A DNA stretch of 64,000 bases, taken from contig NC_013203.1 in the NCBI RefSeq assembly GCF_000024225.1, positions 434,001-498,000 of the forward strand. The letters run 5' to 3'. Shown in pieces: positions 42,774-50,621 of this stretch. This DNA is from Lancefieldella parvula DSM 20469 (lineage in GTDB: Bacteria > Actinomycetota > Coriobacteriia > Coriobacteriales > Atopobiaceae). Position 1 is the first letter of the stretch. Every line of letters begins with the position of its first letter. Made by a program: the position numbers and the translations under genes. The notes under the pieces were generated by a model that saw only the letters and a program-made list of their open reading frames with translations, ran no database searches and had not been told where the DNA came from.

Positions 42774-44741
42774 ATGAAAAGGGTCTCAACCTCTTCTTTT
42801 ACGAGAGTAGCTGCAGTGTCATTATCTCTTCTTTTGATATTGACTCTTTTTCCTCTTAATCCTGTAAAAGCTTATGCAACAGATCCTGCAAAAGGTATAG
42901 AGGTTCGTGAAGATGCTTCTAAATTAGAGGCGAGTGTTGCAGCAGCAAAGGCAGCTGGTGTAGATGTTCAAAAAGATGATGATGTTGACAAGGGTTCTGT
43001 CGAATCGTCATCAGATATTGATGCTAAAAAGTCTGAGATTCAAGATGATTACAACAAACAATCTCAAGATTTAGATGCTATTACAGAAGAAGCTAAACAG
43101 AAGCTAGCAGACTATGCTACAAAAAAGGCTGCTTATGATACCGCCAAGGCTAAGTATGACGCAGACAAAGCTCAGTATGATGCAGACAAAGCTCAGTATG
43201 ATGCAGATATGATTGCTTATAATAAAGCTATGGCTGAGCTTGAACAGAAAAAGAACGAAGATGGCTATATGACTAAGCCATATCCGCAGCTTTTAACATT
43301 TAAATCTGAGCCAAATGCAGTACTTACTCTTTCAGGCAGAAAATATACACATGATGAGTTTAGTGCAGAAGTTAGATCTTGGAATCTTGGATCTGAGCCA
43401 TGGAGATATTCATACTTTGATGCATTAAATAATGGACAGGCTGCTAATGCAGCACGTGTTATGTTAGAAAAAGATAAGCCTTTCACTGCTACATATACAA
43501 ATTTGACTAATTCTAGCTATAACGGTAAGAAGATTTCTAAAGTTGTATATACCTATACGTATAAGGGTTCTTCGGGAGTAAACGTACCTAATAAGCTTCC
43601 AGTTGTCTTGCAAAAGGACCCTACGGTTACTATTTGGTATAACGATTTCTTCGGTGATGCTCGAATTAATGTAACTGTTAAATTTTATGATGAAGACGGT
43701 AATGTAATTGACCCAACTGGTTCATTACTGAGTTTTTCTTCATTAAATAGAGGAAATGGATCCGGTGCAGTTGATAAAGATGCAATTGAAAAGGTTGGAT
43801 ACTTTAACGGCGAATATGTGCCTATTTCAGGATCAACAATTAAACCCCATGCTGATGGCAGCGCGTATTCAGATACAAATAATGCTGAAAAAGCTTATGG
43901 TTCCAGATTTAATACAGCTGACTGGGATACACCAACTTCTCCTAAAGCATGGTATGGTGCCATTGTTGGCCGAGTAACAAGTCCTGAAATTAGTTTTGAT
44001 ATGGCCTCTCATAAGAGCGGCATTGTTTGGTTTGCTCTCAATTCGGATATTAAGGCAATTAATGTGCCCACCAAACCAGTTGAGCCAACACCACCTACAC
44101 CTCCAGCAGAAGAGCCTGAGAAGCCAACATTTAGCGCTCGATATCATTTGGACGTATTCTATGTAAAGCCTCAGTTAGAGAAGAAAGCATTAAGTGAGGA
44201 TGATAAGGATATTAATTCCAATACAGTAAAGACTAATTCTGTTGTCAAATTTGCATTGAATACTACGCCTTTTCCAGCAGGGCATGAAAAAATTGACTCT
44301 GTAGTTTTCCATGATGTATTACCCGAGGGTTATGAAGTCAATTTGGAAGACACAAAGAAGGCAAGTCCTGATTATGAAGTAAGTTACGATGAAGGTACGC
44401 GTACGCTTGTCTTTACAGCAAATGCTTCTTTGCTCAGTCAGATTAATGCTGATCCAACTAAGGAAGCTGATGTTCCTGCTCCTGTAATCGTTGGTAAAGT
44501 TACAAAAGATGGAGCTGTTTACGAAAACGACTTTGATATAGATATTAATAATACCTATACAAGAAGCTCAAATAAGGTAACGGTAAAGACACCTGAGCCT
44601 CCTAATCCGCCAAAGAAACGTAAAAAGAAGGCTAAAACTCCATATACAGGAGACGCAGGAGTATTTTCTTCTATTGCTCTTTGTACAGGATCAATAGCAG
44701 TATTAGGTGGTTCTTGGTTTATTAAGAAGAAAAAGAAATAG
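42774..44741 (+). CDS. Antigen I/II-family wall-anchored adhesin
   Basis: 655 residues. Signal peptide to about 35; Ala-rich coiled-coil repeats (KYDADKAQ units, 50-155); GbpC/Spa-type V domain (~160-440) with ATYTNLTNSSYNGKKISKVVY and the YDEDGNVID and SFSSLNRGNG segments. A Pro-rich linker (~445-470) leads to one isopeptide-type C domain (~470-610; YHLDVFYVKPQ, DVLPEGYEV, VVGKVTKDGAVYENDF). The sorting signal is TPYTG (622-626), a hydrophobic stretch and KKKKK. This matches streptococcal SspB/PAc but is less than half their length, with one A block, one C domain and no P-repeat array. Its likely role is binding salivary glycoproteins or partner bacteria. AT-rich; acquisition from oral Firmicutes is plausible. 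Confidence 0.9.
   Translation: MKRVSTSSFTRVAAVSLSLLLILTLFPLNPVKAYATDPAKGIEVREDASKLEASVAAAKAAGVDVQKDDDVDKGSVESSSDIDAKKSEIQDDYNKQSQDLDAITEEAKQKLADYATKKAAYDTAKAKYDADKAQYDADKAQYDADMIAYNKAMAELEQKKNEDGYMTKPYPQLLTFKSEPNAVLTLSGRKYTHDEFSAEVRSWNLGSEPWRYSYFDALNNGQAANAARVMLEKDKPFTATYTNLTNSSYNGKKISKVVYTYTYKGSSGVNVPNKLPVVLQKDPTVTIWYNDFFGDARINVTVKFYDEDGNVIDPTGSLLSFSSLNRGNGSGAVDKDAIEKVGYFNGEYVPISGSTIKPHADGSAYSDTNNAEKAYGSRFNTADWDTPTSPKAWYGAIVGRVTSPEISFDMASHKSGIVWFALNSDIKAINVPTKPVEPTPPTPPAEEPEKPTFSARYHLDVFYVKPQLEKKALSEDDKDINSNTVKTNSVVKFALNTTPFPAGHEKIDSVVFHDVLPEGYEVNLEDTKKASPDYEVSYDEGTRTLVFTANASLLSQINADPTKEADVPAPVIVGKVTKDGAVYENDFDIDINNTYTRSSNKVTVKTPEPPNPPKKRKKKAKTPYTGDAGVFSSIALCTGSIAVLGGSWFIKKKKK
43161..43202 (+). 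repeat. Two perfect 21-bp tandem repeats in the adhesin
   Basis: 43161-43181 and 43182-43202 are identical and encode the A-block unit ADKAQYD, with degenerate copies on both sides. Copy number could vary by slippage. Confidence 0.85.
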
Positions 44742-45493: not shown

Positions 45494-45695
45494 TTGTACT
45501 CCTTTTGTTATAGATAGAATTATACTGAGCTTATATTCAGCTTAAAAGTAATTGGTTAAAGTATTATTCAGTATGACTGTAAGATTTTTTGTGTAAAATT
45601 TATGTATTTCTTAAACATTGTTTCATAAACGACAAAATTATTTAAAATTCAGCAAAGGAGCTCATTAGGTTTATGCTTCGAGAATGGAGAAACAA

Positions 45696-45941
45696 ATGAG
45701 TGATGATTTTCGTAAATTGGTAACCGCCCTACAATCTGATTATTCTTTAGCGATTGATTTTCTTGATGATCCTTCATGTTTTTTGAAGAATTATCAGCTT
45801 AATGAAAATGAATACAAAGCTTTAAGTACATCAGATTTTTCTTTGTTAGCAGAATTATGCGGAAGTGAGCAGGTTGCTGCCGGAGCATTATCAGGTGCGC
45901 ATTCAAGTCTTTGCACAAAGACTACTCCAGTAATTAAATGA
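45696..45941 (+). CDS. Candidate RiPP precursor peptide
   Basis: 81 residues. Residues 1-55 look like a helical leader: FLDDPSCFLKNYQLNENEYKAL follows the F..DP...L..Y.L...E..AL pattern found in LigA/Nif11-like RiPP leaders. Residues ~57-81 form a Ser/Thr-rich, Gly/Ala-containing putative core with SGAHSSLCTKTT and one Cys (73); other Cys are at 28 and 55. Its only prolines are 26 and 78. ATG 45696 is chosen for GGAG 6 nt upstream (ATG 45684 is the alternative). The stop overlaps the start of the protease gene, and a lanthipeptide-type lyase-kinase and exporter follow. Modification is inferred from context. Confidence 0.72.
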   Translation: MSDDFRKLVTALQSDYSLAIDFLDDPSCFLKNYQLNENEYKALSTSDFSLLAELCGSEQVAAGALSGAHSSLCTKTTPVIK

Positions 45942-47440
45942 GTGTTATAGAACAGTATAATTTTTATTATCTCGGGACTTGTAAATATTGCATATTTTCA
46001 AGTCCCGAAGATATATTAATCAAAGAGATATTGTTTTTTTCTGTTTCAGATAAGAAAGACTCTTATTGTGTTGTGACTGAAATGGAAGGCTGTCGTTTTA
46101 ATTTAATAGTTTATTTAAATGCATTTGGTTATATTAGTTGGAGTTTTTCTTTTAGGGTTTTGGATGTTTTTTGGGTCGGTTCACGTATTTGTTTAATGCT
46201 TGAGAATTACTTTATTATTTTTGATCCAATTTTAAAGAAACGAATGGTGCTTACATTGCCATCATATAGGATTCATAAGATTATATCTTTGGATTCATCG
46301 GAATATGTTTATTCAACTTTTTCAAAAAGTATCAATTATTGCTCTATTGTAAAACATGATATTATTATAAATAAAGATATAACTATAAAAGAGATATCAT
46401 GCTATGGAAAAGAAGTAAAAGAAAATATAGGCAATTTGAATCAAAATCAGCAAAATGCTATTGATAATTTTGTTTCAACCCTTTCAATATATGGTCAAGT
46501 AAGCTTTGTAGGAAAAATAAATAATGCGATAGTTCAATTTAAATATAATAGATTAAATACTGAAATTGTTGCTGAAGAAAAAGTTCGGTGGACAATTCCT
46601 GGATTTATACAGTCTGGGGGAATATTTAAATCCAAGTTAATTATACTTTGGTCAAATTTTTTGAATGAACCTCAATTGGCTTGTCTAGATGAAAAGCAGT
46701 ATGATAAATTTCATTTTACGAACACATCGTCAATTTCTTATTGTATTGATTCAAGCACATTACAGCCATATTATTTTGTTGGTAATAAGAAATCAAAAGA
46801 CTATGTTCTTTTTTTGCACGGGGGTCCGACTGGTCAATTTGTAAATCGTTATGATTTTCTTTATAAATGTCTCTTAGAGACAAATTGCAATCTATTGTTT
46901 TTGAATTATATTGGAAGTAGCGGATATACAAGTGAATATCAGAGTTCATTAGTTAATAGGGGAGGAAAGTTAGATGTAAAGTTAATCAAAGAGTTTATTG
47001 AAAATTTCATTAAAAATTACGAAATTAATAGATTAGTAGTAGTTGGGATGAGCTATGGAGGCTACCTGTCTATACTCCTTTCAAAGAGATTTAGTACAAG
47101 AGAATTTATCAAGTTCGTCTCTATTTCTGGATTTTGTAACGTTATGTTTCAATATTTATTTTCATCTGCTCGGAATGTCATTCTTTTATATTTATTAAAT
47201 GATTATGAGAAGAATAAGTATAGCATTGACCCAGTATATATAAATTTTTTAGATGTAAAAAATTTATCTTTTATTCATGGTCTGAATGATACTTATTGCC
47301 CTCTTGAACAGATAGAACAATTTTGCATTAAAAATAACTTCAAACTATCCATTCTTAAAAATTTGAATCATATATCAATGTCATTATTGGACAAATTGGA
47401 TGTAGCTCGCATCTTGATGAAAGAGATGGAAAATGATTAG
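45938..47440 (+). CDS. Prolyl-oligopeptidase-family (S9) peptidase, candidate leader peptidase
   Basis: 500 residues. The C-terminal alpha/beta-hydrolase domain has an HGGP oxyanion motif (294-297), nucleophile Ser372 in GMSYGGY, Asp451 in HGLNDTYC and His478 in NLNHIS. The N-terminal ~280 residues are a divergent, beta-rich region, shorter and less conserved than a standard POP propeller. POP-family enzymes such as FlaP remove leaders in class III lanthipeptide clusters, which suggests that role here. It starts 4 nt inside the end of the precursor gene. No signal peptide. Very AT-rich (one 60-nt sample is 25% GC). Confidence 0.85.
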   Translation: MSVIEQYNFYYLGTCKYCIFSSPEDILIKEILFFSVSDKKDSYCVVTEMEGCRFNLIVYLNAFGYISWSFSFRVLDVFWVGSRICLMLENYFIIFDPILKKRMVLTLPSYRIHKIISLDSSEYVYSTFSKSINYCSIVKHDIIINKDITIKEISCYGKEVKENIGNLNQNQQNAIDNFVSTLSIYGQVSFVGKINNAIVQFKYNRLNTEIVAEEKVRWTIPGFIQSGGIFKSKLIILWSNFLNEPQLACLDEKQYDKFHFTNTSSISYCIDSSTLQPYYFVGNKKSKDYVLFLHGGPTGQFVNRYDFLYKCLLETNCNLLFLNYIGSSGYTSEYQSSLVNRGGKLDVKLIKEFIENFIKNYEINRLVVVGMSYGGYLSILLSKRFSTREFIKFVSISGFCNVMFQYLFSSARNVILLYLLNDYEKNKYSIDPVYINFLDVKNLSFIHGLNDTYCPLEQIEQFCIKNNFKLSILKNLNHISMSLLDKLDVARILMKEMEND

Positions 47441-47708
47441 AAAAGTTAAAACACCGTTGATCGACTCGTTAAATCTATTCATTGAATCTTCGCATGAGAT
47501 AACAGACTACAAACTATACTATGATTTTATTGTTAAGTCTTTTTATGTAAATAGGCAAGAACGGTTCAGTTTATCTGATTTACATAGGTATTTATCAGAA
47601 AAAAATGTTAAAGACAAAAAGGAATTACTTTTAATATATATGCATAGTCTATACGTATTGGCAATAAATAAAAACTTATCAATCTATGGGAATGGTTTTA
47701 ATGTTTAG
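47433..47708 (+). CDS. Unknown small protein in the RiPP-like cluster
   Basis: 91 residues, not recognised. It is predicted helical with aromatic-rich KLYYDFIVKSFYVNRQERFSLSDLHRYLSEK. It overlaps the protease gene by 8 nt and the lyase-kinase gene by up to 23 nt, so it is expressed with them. It could be an accessory or recognition protein, or a split-off N-terminal part of the synthetase; neither can be shown here. Confidence 0.65.
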   Translation: MIRKVKTPLIDSLNLFIESSHEITDYKLYYDFIVKSFYVNRQERFSLSDLHRYLSEKNVKDKKELLLIYMHSLYVLAINKNLSIYGNGFNV

Positions 47709-48939
47709 GGCAGAGGATTACTTAAAAAATATTGAAAAAGATCAACTTGGAATTTGGGCTTATCCAAGTGATAATATTTATGATAATTTACCAACTTCTG
47801 GAATAAAAGTACATATTTCTGCAATTCCACAAAATTCTGAGTATATTTTTAAAGCAGTGTATCCTTTTTTACAAGAAAAAAATTTATTATTTAAGGTTCT
47901 TGTATCTGATCAAATTTTGATGCGAGAGAATAGTGGTGAGTTTGGTTATTCTCAATTAGGTAAATTTATAACAATTTATCCAAAATCGGAAAATGAGCTC
48001 GTTAGTATTGTTCCTGCTCTTCATATTTTAACAATTGGGTTTTCTTCAATTAGAATTCCCTCAGATTGTAGATATACGAATGATTCAATTATATATTATC
48101 GATATGGAGAGTTTAAGTCAGATGAAAATTTTATTGATAATCGATTAAGCACTTCAACTACAAAAAATTTAATCCCAGATGACTTGAAATATGTTCAGAA
48201 AGAACTTTCTATTATAAAAGAGTTCACCCCGATTAAATGTATCCGAGCGAGAGGAAAGTCATGTGTTTATCTCGGAATAATGAATTGTAATCGCAAAATT
48301 GTAATAATAAAAATGTGGAATCATATTGGTGAAGGATTAGATTATTCAGGTTTTGAATTATTTAAGCATGAATATAAGTTGTTGAAGTCATGTGAAAAGC
48401 TAAATTCTATTCCAAATATGATAGATTCATTTTATTACAAGGACTGTTATGTAATTGTCGAAGAGAACATGACTGGACATTTGCTTCAAGATTTTTTATT
48501 AAAAGAAGTTTCTAGGAAAAAAAGAAAACTTATAATGTGTGGAATAATTTCAGAGTTAGAAAAGATTGTGTGTAATGGATTTATTCCTTTTGATATTGCG
48601 CCATCAAATTTGTTATTAAAAGGGAATAAGATAAAATTAATCGATTTCGAGTTTTTTCGTTCAATTGATGAAGACTTACCAACTTACAATTTCGGAACGC
48701 CTGGATTTATGCACGATAACGTACAGCCAAGTAGGCAGTTTATTTTTTCATTAGCAATGATAGATTATTATTTACAAAATAGTGTTCAATATAAAACGTT
48801 GTTAGAAAATAATGAAGTTAATGAGGATACTAAAGACTATGTCTATAACAAGTTTAGTTTTATTTTGTCTAAAGAAAATACCACTTCGCTAGAAGACTGT
48901 CTAAGAATACTTAAAGAGTATATAGAGGAGGAAAGATAG
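47701..48939 (+). CDS. Lanthipeptide-synthetase-like lyase-kinase protein lacking a cyclase domain
   Basis: 412 residues. Residues ~30-160 match the phosphoSer/Thr lyase domain of class III/IV LanKC/LanL: the KVH motif (36-38, as in SpvC/OspF-type lyases), FKV (64-66), GKFITIYP (87-94) and YYRYG (132-136). Residues ~175-340 are a kinase: ATP-site Lys204 in VIIKMW, Glu224, catalytic FDIAPSN (297-303), metal-binding Asp315 in DFE and GTPG (332-335). Full LanKC proteins run on into a ~400-residue LanC-like domain; here the protein ends ~75 residues after the kinase core. It is expected to phosphorylate and eliminate Ser/Thr of the peptide, giving dehydroamino acids. The start could also be 47686 or 47692. 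Confidence 0.8.
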   Translation: MFRAEDYLKNIEKDQLGIWAYPSDNIYDNLPTSGIKVHISAIPQNSEYIFKAVYPFLQEKNLLFKVLVSDQILMRENSGEFGYSQLGKFITIYPKSENELVSIVPALHILTIGFSSIRIPSDCRYTNDSIIYYRYGEFKSDENFIDNRLSTSTTKNLIPDDLKYVQKELSIIKEFTPIKCIRARGKSCVYLGIMNCNRKIVIIKMWNHIGEGLDYSGFELFKHEYKLLKSCEKLNSIPNMIDSFYYKDCYVIVEENMTGHLLQDFLLKEVSRKKRKLIMCGIISELEKIVCNGFIPFDIAPSNLLLKGNKIKLIDFEFFRSIDEDLPTYNFGTPGFMHDNVQPSRQFIFSLAMIDYYLQNSVQYKTLLENNEVNEDTKDYVYNKFSFILSKENTTSLEDCLRILKEYIEEER

Positions 48940-48940
48940 A

Positions 48941-49843
48941 ATGAAATCCATTAAATTTGATGATGTATCGTATCATTATCATAATTCCGATAAAGGAATT
49001 CGGAACTTCTCTTTAGAAATCTCCAAAGGTGAATTTATAGCGGTAATTGGTAAGAATGGTGCAGGTAAATCAACTTTTTTGAATTTGGTTGCTGGACTAT
49101 TAAAGAAGTATGACGGAAAAATTACTGTTGAAGAAGAGATACCCTTTAGAGATGTTGGAGTTTGTCTACAGAAACAATCAATCGATTGGTATTTAAATGT
49201 CTTTGACAATGTGTACCTTGGTGCAAGATTAAGTGGACAAACATCTAGCGATGCTAAGATAAGCACTCATAAAATTATAAATTTACTTGGATTGTTCGAG
49301 TTTAAAGAATCTTTACCTGATGGTTTATCTGGAGGACAGCAGCAGCTCGTACAGGTTGCAAGAGCGTTAGTCCACAAACCAAATTTTCTCATTCTTGATG
49401 AGCCAACCTCCGGGTTGGACGTAATCAAAGGGGATAATTTATTTAAATATTTAAGAAAAGAATGTGATAACAGAAACTGTACAGTACTTGTTTCCTCACA
49501 TGATCTTGGTTTGTTGGAGGAGTATTGTGATCAGGTTTTATTAATTGAAGATGGTAAATTAAAATTCTTCGGTAGAATTTCCGACTTCTTTTTACAGTAC
49601 TCTTATGAAAAATTGGCACGAATTACTTTTGATGGATTGTTATCGCCTGATAATCAAAGAGATTTAATGTCTTGCTGTCCTTTTTCAATTGAAGAAAATG
49701 AAATGACAATAAGTGAAGATTATTTTCTTAAACTGCCTGTTCTTATCGGTAAGTTACAGAAGTTTGTTTCAATAAAGAATATTACTTTTAATAATTTGAC
49801 ACTGCGACAAATAATTTTGGAAGGATCTGCTAATGAATTTTAA
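48941..49843 (+). CDS. ABC transporter ATPase of the RiPP-like cluster
   Basis: 300 residues, ABC-2-type ATPase. Walker A GKNGAGKST, Q-loop CLQKQS, signature LSGGQQQLV, Walker B LILDEPTSGLD and switch SSHD are present, with a ~90-residue C-terminal extension. GAGGAGG lies before ATG 48941, one base after the lyase-kinase stop. Its last 11 nt overlap the permease gene. It probably energises export of (or immunity to) the peptide product. Confidence 0.93.
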   Translation: MKSIKFDDVSYHYHNSDKGIRNFSLEISKGEFIAVIGKNGAGKSTFLNLVAGLLKKYDGKITVEEEIPFRDVGVCLQKQSIDWYLNVFDNVYLGARLSGQTSSDAKISTHKIINLLGLFEFKESLPDGLSGGQQQLVQVARALVHKPNFLILDEPTSGLDVIKGDNLFKYLRKECDNRNCTVLVSSHDLGLLEEYCDQVLLIEDGKLKFFGRISDFFLQYSYEKLARITFDGLLSPDNQRDLMSCCPFSIEENEMTISEDYFLKLPVLIGKLQKFVSIKNITFNNLTLRQIILEGSANEF

Positions 49844-50621
49844 AAAAGAGAGTTTTGGTCTTTCATCATTTGTCATCGTTGTAGAAACAGAGCTTAATGC
49901 ACTTAAGTCAAATAAACACATAATATACAGCAGCTTATTGACTCCAATTTTGTATTATGTTTTTTATGCAATAGGAATTCAGTCAACATTTGGAGATATA
50001 TATTTTCATGGACAGTATATGTCCTTTTTATCATTTGCATTTGCTGGCATTTTGATTATGTGCTTATTTCAACAAATGAATCAAAGTGTTTATAGGTTGG
50101 TTATAGATAAGCGATGGAATATTTTGCCGATTAAACTTGAGAGTGGCATTAATCCTGAGTGTTATGTGTTGGGCATTTCAACACTTCCTTTTGTAGTAAC
50201 GCTGCTTCAATTAATAATTCTTTTGGCTATTTCAATGATTACTGGTATGCAGATAAGTCTTTGGCAAGTTATTGGTATGTTTTTGTTTCTGTGTATTTTT
50301 ATTGTATTCTGGACATCAATTTTTTCTTGTATTGCATTGCTAATTAATGATTATAAACAGCGAGATTTTATTTTGAGTGTAGTAATGACGCCTTTGATTT
50401 TTGCCGCACCACTATTTTATTCTCTTGATAATGCTCCTATGATTCTTCAAGTTATATCAAGATGTAATCCATTAACATATCAACTTGAATTAATTCGAGA
50501 TATTTTGATTGGAAATTTGGATTGGAAGATGACTTTTATTTCCATAGTGATTAGTTTACTATCACTGATTATTGCTGGTAATGTTCTTAAAAAAGTTGAC
50601 TATGCAAGTGGAGAGCATTAA
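49833..50621 (+). CDS. ABC-2 type permease of the RiPP-like cluster
   Basis: 262 residues, six membrane segments, ABC-2 fold: an N-terminal amphipathic stretch, then ILYYVFYAIG and MSFLSFAFAGILIMCLFQQ, with the conserved NPLTYQLELIRD before the last helix. It is the partner of the overlapping ATPase and the last gene of the cluster. Codon use is strongly AT-biased like the rest of 45.7-50.6 kb. Confidence 0.9.
   Translation: MNFKKESFGLSSFVIVVETELNALKSNKHIIYSSLLTPILYYVFYAIGIQSTFGDIYFHGQYMSFLSFAFAGILIMCLFQQMNQSVYRLVIDKRWNILPIKLESGINPECYVLGISTLPFVVTLLQLIILLAISMITGMQISLWQVIGMFLFLCIFIVFWTSIFSCIALLINDYKQRDFILSVVMTPLIFAAPLFYSLDNAPMILQVISRCNPLTYQLELIRDILIGNLDWKMTFISIVISLLSLIIAGNVLKKVDYASGEH

Follow-up and report, generated by a model that had tools for sequence, protein, structure and literature searches.

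Among lanthipeptide synthetases, the class III enzymes known as LanKC (ThurKC, PneKC, SalKC, CurKC) join in one protein an N-terminal RamC-type phospho-Ser/Thr lyase, a central Ser/Thr kinase and a C-terminal zinc-less LanC-like domain, class IV enzymes (LanL) carry a zinc-binding LanC domain, and class V systems (cacaoidin, lexapeptide), like the thioamitides, dehydrate with a kinase plus a phospho-Ser/Thr lyase, LanK and the HopA1-like LanY being separate proteins and LanX acting with a decarboxylase to make aminovinyl-methylcysteine (AviMeCys). Class Va clusters have no LanC (PMC12291118), and the class V lyase is devoid of the K-x-H pair (PMC9486802). A leader protease of the prolyl-oligopeptidase (POP) family has been described next to LanKC in flavipeptin (FlaP; PMC10885120) and in the Streptococcus pneumoniae III_3 (LanPB) clusters (PMC7268733). 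Here, we analyzed a stretch of 64,000 nucleotides (the window) from the oral bacterium Lancefieldella parvula DSM 20469, corresponding to positions 434001–498000 of a genome that forms a single contig of 1,543,805 bases, in which six genes (45696–50621) make up an operon for a ribosomally synthesized and post-translationally modified peptide (RiPP). With a probability that we put at roughly 0.6, these genes would belong to a conserved RiPP operon family whose class III-type dehydratase has no LanC-like domain.

The central element of the operon is a lyase-kinase of 412 aa (47701–48939, +), in which Pfam recognizes RamC_N (1e-28) followed by Pkinase (5.7e-14) and no domain thereafter. The NCBIfam models LanKC (2.9e-42) and LanL (8.6e-38) match it partially, both far below their whole-protein cut-offs, the lyase-kinase is closest, among proteins of solved structure, to class III LanKC enzymes, and LanKC enzymes also rank first when its model is searched with Foldseek, with a poor superposition (low-confidence model). 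A sequence-only reading had related this protein to class III/IV synthetases on the basis of the motifs KVH (within KVHIS), FKV, YYRYG, VIIK, FDIAPSN and DFE and had seen it stop soon after the kinase; these profile searches bear it out, all of the motifs being present inside real domains. Moreover, the lyase residues K41, H43, K70, K93, D127 and R139 align with K65, H67, K94, K117, D152 and R163 of ThurKC, the mutation of which impairs or abolishes dehydration (PMC10604976). They are invariant across the family alignment described below, as are K209, E229, D303, N308, D320 and E322 of the kinase. The enzyme thus has the N-terminal RamC-type lyase of class III, with its K, H, K, D and R, and the central kinase, with its K, αC E, D..N loop and DFE, but the C-terminal zinc-less LanC-like domain is missing, the kinase ending the protein in all intact members scanned. 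Neither the zinc-binding LanC domain of class IV nor the separate LanK, LanY and LanX of class V are found, RamC_N and kinase being fused in one protein, and by Pfam and NCBIfam scans none of the other genes of the operon is kinase-like. In short, the operon resembles the first half of a class III system and is not class III by the LanC-domain definition, nor class IV or V.

The comparison with described systems can be drawn further. With LanKC clusters, the operon shares the order of RamC_N and kinase, the catalytic residues, the N-terminal LQ leader, an ATP-binding cassette (ABC) exporter and, as in some of these clusters, a POP gene; it differs from them in the absence of a LanC-like domain, in the presence instead of a gene for a partner protein of about 95 aa and in an S-x3/5-S-x2-C core with an invariant His. 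Flavipeptin and S. pneumoniae III_3 have a full-length LanKC beside their POP-family protease, and class V clusters are set apart by the lack of a RamC_N–kinase fusion and by LanX and LanD, of which the operon is devoid. The suggestion of the sequence-only reading that no described class unites a lyase-kinase and a POP protease therefore holds in part: a POP gene beside LanKC was already known, whereas no description of a cyclase-less LanKC family was found in openly licensed literature. In this regard, the LanC-like domain (PF05147) has served as entry criterion for the mining of class III/IV clusters (PMC7268733), to which a cyclase-less family is consequently invisible.

Searches of plasmids, genome contigs and Lactobacillales/Bacillales genomes recovered eight further clusters, so that the family extends to at least eight other Gram-positive bacteria: Enterococcus faecium pKO1 (locus L035), Streptococcus salivarius plasmid pSsal-NU10 (L037), a Planococcus lenghuensis plasmid (L041), Robertmurraya korlensis (L044), Lactobacillus kalixensis (L045) and three Lactobacillales genomes designated G903 (L056), G776 (L057) and G892 (L058). 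All eight contain genes for a precursor and for ABC transporters, together with one for a homolog of the partner protein (about 92–114 aa) that immediately precedes the lyase-kinase gene; POP genes are present in seven of them, the S. salivarius cluster having none in the stretch examined. Full-length lyase-kinases range from 412 to 480 aa, and in none of the intact members scanned is the kinase followed by LanC. The window ATPase and permease are 36–47% and 34–40% identical, respectively, to their counterparts in related clusters, two fused ABC transporters replacing this pair in L. kalixensis. A profile built from seven lyase-kinases scores full-length members at 529–583 bits and the next relative, from a Salipiger sp. 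CCB-MM3 plasmid (L042:4842–6413), at 191 bits. Like the family, this 523-aa Salipiger protein has RamC_N and kinase without a LanC match; unlike it, it adjoins an S-adenosylmethionine (SAM) methyltransferase with no partner of about 95 aa seen, and it is a second, separate lineage of this kind. As for LanKC proteins on Lactococcus and Carnobacterium plasmids (L040:4989–6836 and L039:5962–7965; 615 and 667 aa), their LanC-like ends are short or very divergent. Overall, the family is real, conserved, rare and, as far as can be checked, unnamed, and is most aptly described as class III-like, a RiPP family without a cyclase and with a new small partner protein.

Several points weigh against this reading. 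The tree groups the lyase-kinases of the family only loosely and does not settle a single origin. The position of ThurKC K108, which helps order the kinase activation loop, is occupied by Gly (G84) in the window enzyme, and a counterpart of ThurKC R191 could not be placed. When excised from ThurKC, the lyase-kinase loses its activity, which is restored once the cyclase domain is supplied separately (PMC10604976). The spacing of the precursor cores, S-x3-S-x2-C in seven clusters and S-x5-S-x2-C in two, departs from the usual S-x2-S-x(2-5)-C of class III. The structure models, finally, are poor, with a predicted local distance difference test (pLDDT) score of 54 for the 91-aa partner and 51 for the lyase-kinase, which is explained by the use of only three sequences. 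On the other hand, excised lyase-kinases of other class III/IV synthetases are reported to be active. Given the dead excised lyase-kinase of ThurKC, the family offers a natural test of how the LanC domain of class III enzymes contributes to dehydration and to the closure of rings.

The absence of a cyclase is not confined to the neighborhood of the enzyme. Indeed, the PF05147 profile detected no LanC-like gene in the whole L. parvula genome, either adjacent to the operon, as had been read from the sequence, or elsewhere. Across six whole genomes, this domain is absent from four (L. parvula, R. korlensis, L. kalixensis and G903), in which ring closure, if any, therefore requires no Pfam-visible LanC-type protein, and present in G776 and G892, where, as for S. 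salivarius pSsal-NU10, the LanC-like domains lie outside the cluster.

What the enzyme might modify can be appreciated from the precursors. The window precursor (81 aa, 45696–45941, +) has homologs in the eight other clusters and consists of a leader with an LVTALQ motif followed by a core region (...GAL-SGAHSSLCTKTTPVIK). In all nine precursors, LQ is found near the N terminus, as expected of a class III leader, albeit as [LVI][IV]xxLQ rather than a strict LxLQ. The core reads S-[GN]-A-H-S-x-x-C in seven of the nine and S-x-P-W-x-H-S-x-x-C in the other two, such that both Ser residues of these motifs, the His and the Cys are kept throughout, with the remaining core and the tail being variable. 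This layout is the one expected for a thioether between dehydroalanine (Dha) at position 5 and Cys at position 8, and a second, upstream Dha could extend it to a labionin or take attack by the His. Against the NHLP leader model, the precursor scored 17 bits for a cut-off of 40, a weak match that was not used. A copper site of the N-terminal X-X-His type was rejected for the core, being incompatible with the precursors SSPWMHS and SAPWAHS, and the string SGAHS returned only an unrelated abbreviation among the matches listed from openly licensed literature.

On this basis, we propose that the leader helix with its LQ motif would dock on the lyase-kinase, as it does in ThurKC, after which the kinase would phosphorylate Ser/Thr of the core and the lyase eliminate the phosphate to give Dha or dehydrobutyrine (Dhb), as the intact and invariant catalytic residues suggest. 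The H-S-x-x-C segment could then close into a four-residue Dha5–Cys8 thioether without LanC, the invariant upstream Ser possibly extending it to a labionin-like bicycle, and closure might be brought about by the partner of about 95 residues or occur spontaneously with the neighboring His as base. The POP protease would finally remove the leader and the ABC-2 transporter export the peptide. If so, the family may be a new route to ringed peptide antibiotics.

The product may also be a linear dehydroamino-acid peptide, in which Dha and Dhb are made, no ring is closed, and the role of the invariant His and Cys is another, such as metal or target binding. There is no cyclase gene in the operon or genome, and a precedent exists in CcaM, an enzyme with DUF4135 and a class III-type cyclase domain that makes the linear carnazolamide, with eight dehydroamino acids and no lanthionine (PMC10676384). 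However, Ser and Cys keep exactly the S-x-x-C distance in all nine precursors, despite variable flanks, which argues against such a product. Besides, a free thiol three residues away from a Dha tends to cyclize unaided, and we consider a linear product unlikely.

The invariant His adjoining Ser in all nine precursors also lends itself to a histidine-based crosslink, that is, a histidinoalanine from His4 to Dha as in noursin, and LanKC_Hbt enzymes do form His-to-Dhb crosslinks (PMC10206099). Yet the unusual cyclase domain thought to be responsible in noursin is missing here, and such a crosslink would leave the equally invariant Cys without a role, which makes it improbable as the main one.

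Is the window enzyme simply a LanKC that lost its cyclase, in an operon now dead or repurposed? Decay is visible in relatives: an IS630 element interrupts the gene in the P. lenghuensis cluster (L041:7411–8450), in Enterococcus sp. DA9, an additional copy of the E. faecium type is broken by an IS256-type element (L061:6491–7663), and the G892 cluster has split frames (L058:6639–9641), broken copies being common among accessory bacteriocin-like loci. The window copy and six others nonetheless have intact frames, invariant catalytic residues and a similar end point, and the partner, the exporter and the precursor core are conserved alongside. Since the same architecture recurs in nine clusters, the window lyase-kinase is not a broken LanKC, and we regard decay as highly improbable. 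Least probable of all is that a LanC-like enzyme from another place in the genome would cyclize the peptide in trans, a possibility for which split arrangements in class I and the LanC-like domains outside the cluster in pSsal-NU10, G776 and G892 could be invoked, but which appears unlikely in L. parvula and the three other LanC-free genomes, where PF05147 has no match, a profile of four divergent class III cyclase domains, itself without a positive control, being likewise null in all six genomes.

Coming back to a cyclase-less dehydratase family as the preferred reading, its most telling new component is the conserved partner protein, which the sequence-only reading had passed over. In the window it has 91 aa (47433–47708, +), is predicted at low confidence to be all-helical (a PqqD-like RiPP recognition element, or RRE, being among the identities considered) and matches no Pfam or NCBIfam family; its homologs stand immediately upstream of the lyase-kinase in every one of the nine clusters. 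Foldseek returned nothing significant with its low-confidence model. An origin as a detached piece of LanKC is not supported, no resemblance being found in profile–profile comparison with 15 LanKC proteins (several incomplete at the end of their stretch), and partial matches to the 95-aa profile in two further genomes (G1397 and G1310) were set aside, as they contain stops and have no surrounding cluster. The protein is singled out as a possible replacement of the LanC domain, a candidate cyclase, activator or leader-binding subunit; since the ThurKC lyase-kinase regains activity with a separate cyclase domain, activation is no less plausible for it than catalysis.

A hint as to the target of the peptides comes from part of the family. 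In G776 and G892, the exporter is immediately followed by a codirectional gene for an Msr-type ABC-F protein (L057:11980–13431, + and L058:3426–4904, -); these proteins score 441.6 and 403.1 bits for an NCBIfam ribosomal-protection cut-off of 380, being closest to Msr. The two ABC-F proteins are 32% identical to each other, compared with 42–57% for the small-protein, ATPase and permease genes of these clusters, and were thus perhaps recruited separately. In R. korlensis, a gene for an RlmA-type 23S rRNA guanine-N1 methyltransferase (L044:11590–12516, +) follows the permease by 102 bp; it is the only copy in that genome and may be housekeeping. Neither gene type was found in the L. parvula genome at the thresholds used, so the hint is confined to part of the family. 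A broader claim, that the partner of about 95 residues is a new LanC-unrelated lanthionine/labionin cyclase or obligate activator and that the S..HSxxC peptides target the ribosome, strikes us as doubtful. If the peptides do target the ribosome, they would be translation inhibitors of a new kind and, to our knowledge, the first ribosome-targeting lanthipeptides. In a 2020 review devoted to RiPPs that target translation, lanthipeptides appear, in the parts consulted, only on account of shared dehydration enzymes (PMC7136475).

The remaining genes of the operon, all on the forward strand, encode a POP-family serine protease (S9; 500 aa, 45938–47440, +; Peptidase_S9, 3e-11), the ABC transporter ATP-binding protein (300 aa, 48941–49843, +; ABC_tran, 2.3e-28) and an ABC-2 type permease (262 aa, 49833–50621, +; ABC2_membrane, 1.7e-17), a predicted exporter and/or immunity component. 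The protease, with the serine motif GMSYGG followed by HGLND and LNH, is the probable leader peptidase. All six open reading frames (ORFs) announced by the sequence-only reading are present with the stated kinds of product, but its description of them as overlapping is true of four junctions out of five: the overlap is of 4 nt between precursor and POP, of 8 nt between POP and the 91-aa gene, of 8–23 nt between the latter and the lyase-kinase, depending on a start at 47701 or 47686, and of 11 nt between ATPase and permease, whereas a 1-nt gap separates lyase-kinase and ATPase. The ATG at 47686 would give a lyase-kinase of 417 aa and that at 45684 a precursor of 85 aa; for the latter, 45696 (MSDDF...) was preferred because homologs begin with MS.

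The G+C content of the operon (29.7%) contrasts with that of the rest of the window (44.8%), and among 398 Coriobacteriia genomes a RamC_N search matched in L. parvula only, on which grounds the operon was probably acquired horizontally. It lies between a hydrolase gene of the haloacid dehalogenase (HAD) type on the opposite strand, upstream, and an aspartyl-tRNA synthetase gene, identified by reading of the sequence, downstream. Two scans of viral contigs, and a search of phage records, yielded no relatives. Other neighbors of the clusters may be mentioned. In S. salivarius and G776, a helix-turn-helix (HTH) regulator of 290 aa (L037:5027–5899 and L057:13794–14666) is followed by an ORF of 48–50 aa (L037:6150–6296 and L057:14647–14799) resembling secreted signal peptides, which makes quorum-sensing control of these two clusters possible. 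Beside the G776 cluster, adjacent genes (L057:28–1364) whose sequences resemble a ThiF/E1-type protein and a JAB-type peptidase possibly form a defence module. Finally, two genes upstream of the window operon, a gene (42774–44741, +) encodes a cell-surface protein of the streptococcal antigen I/II type, in which an Adhesin_P1_N and a GbpC domain are recognized; together with the low G+C content, this is a hint of gene transfer from oral streptococci.

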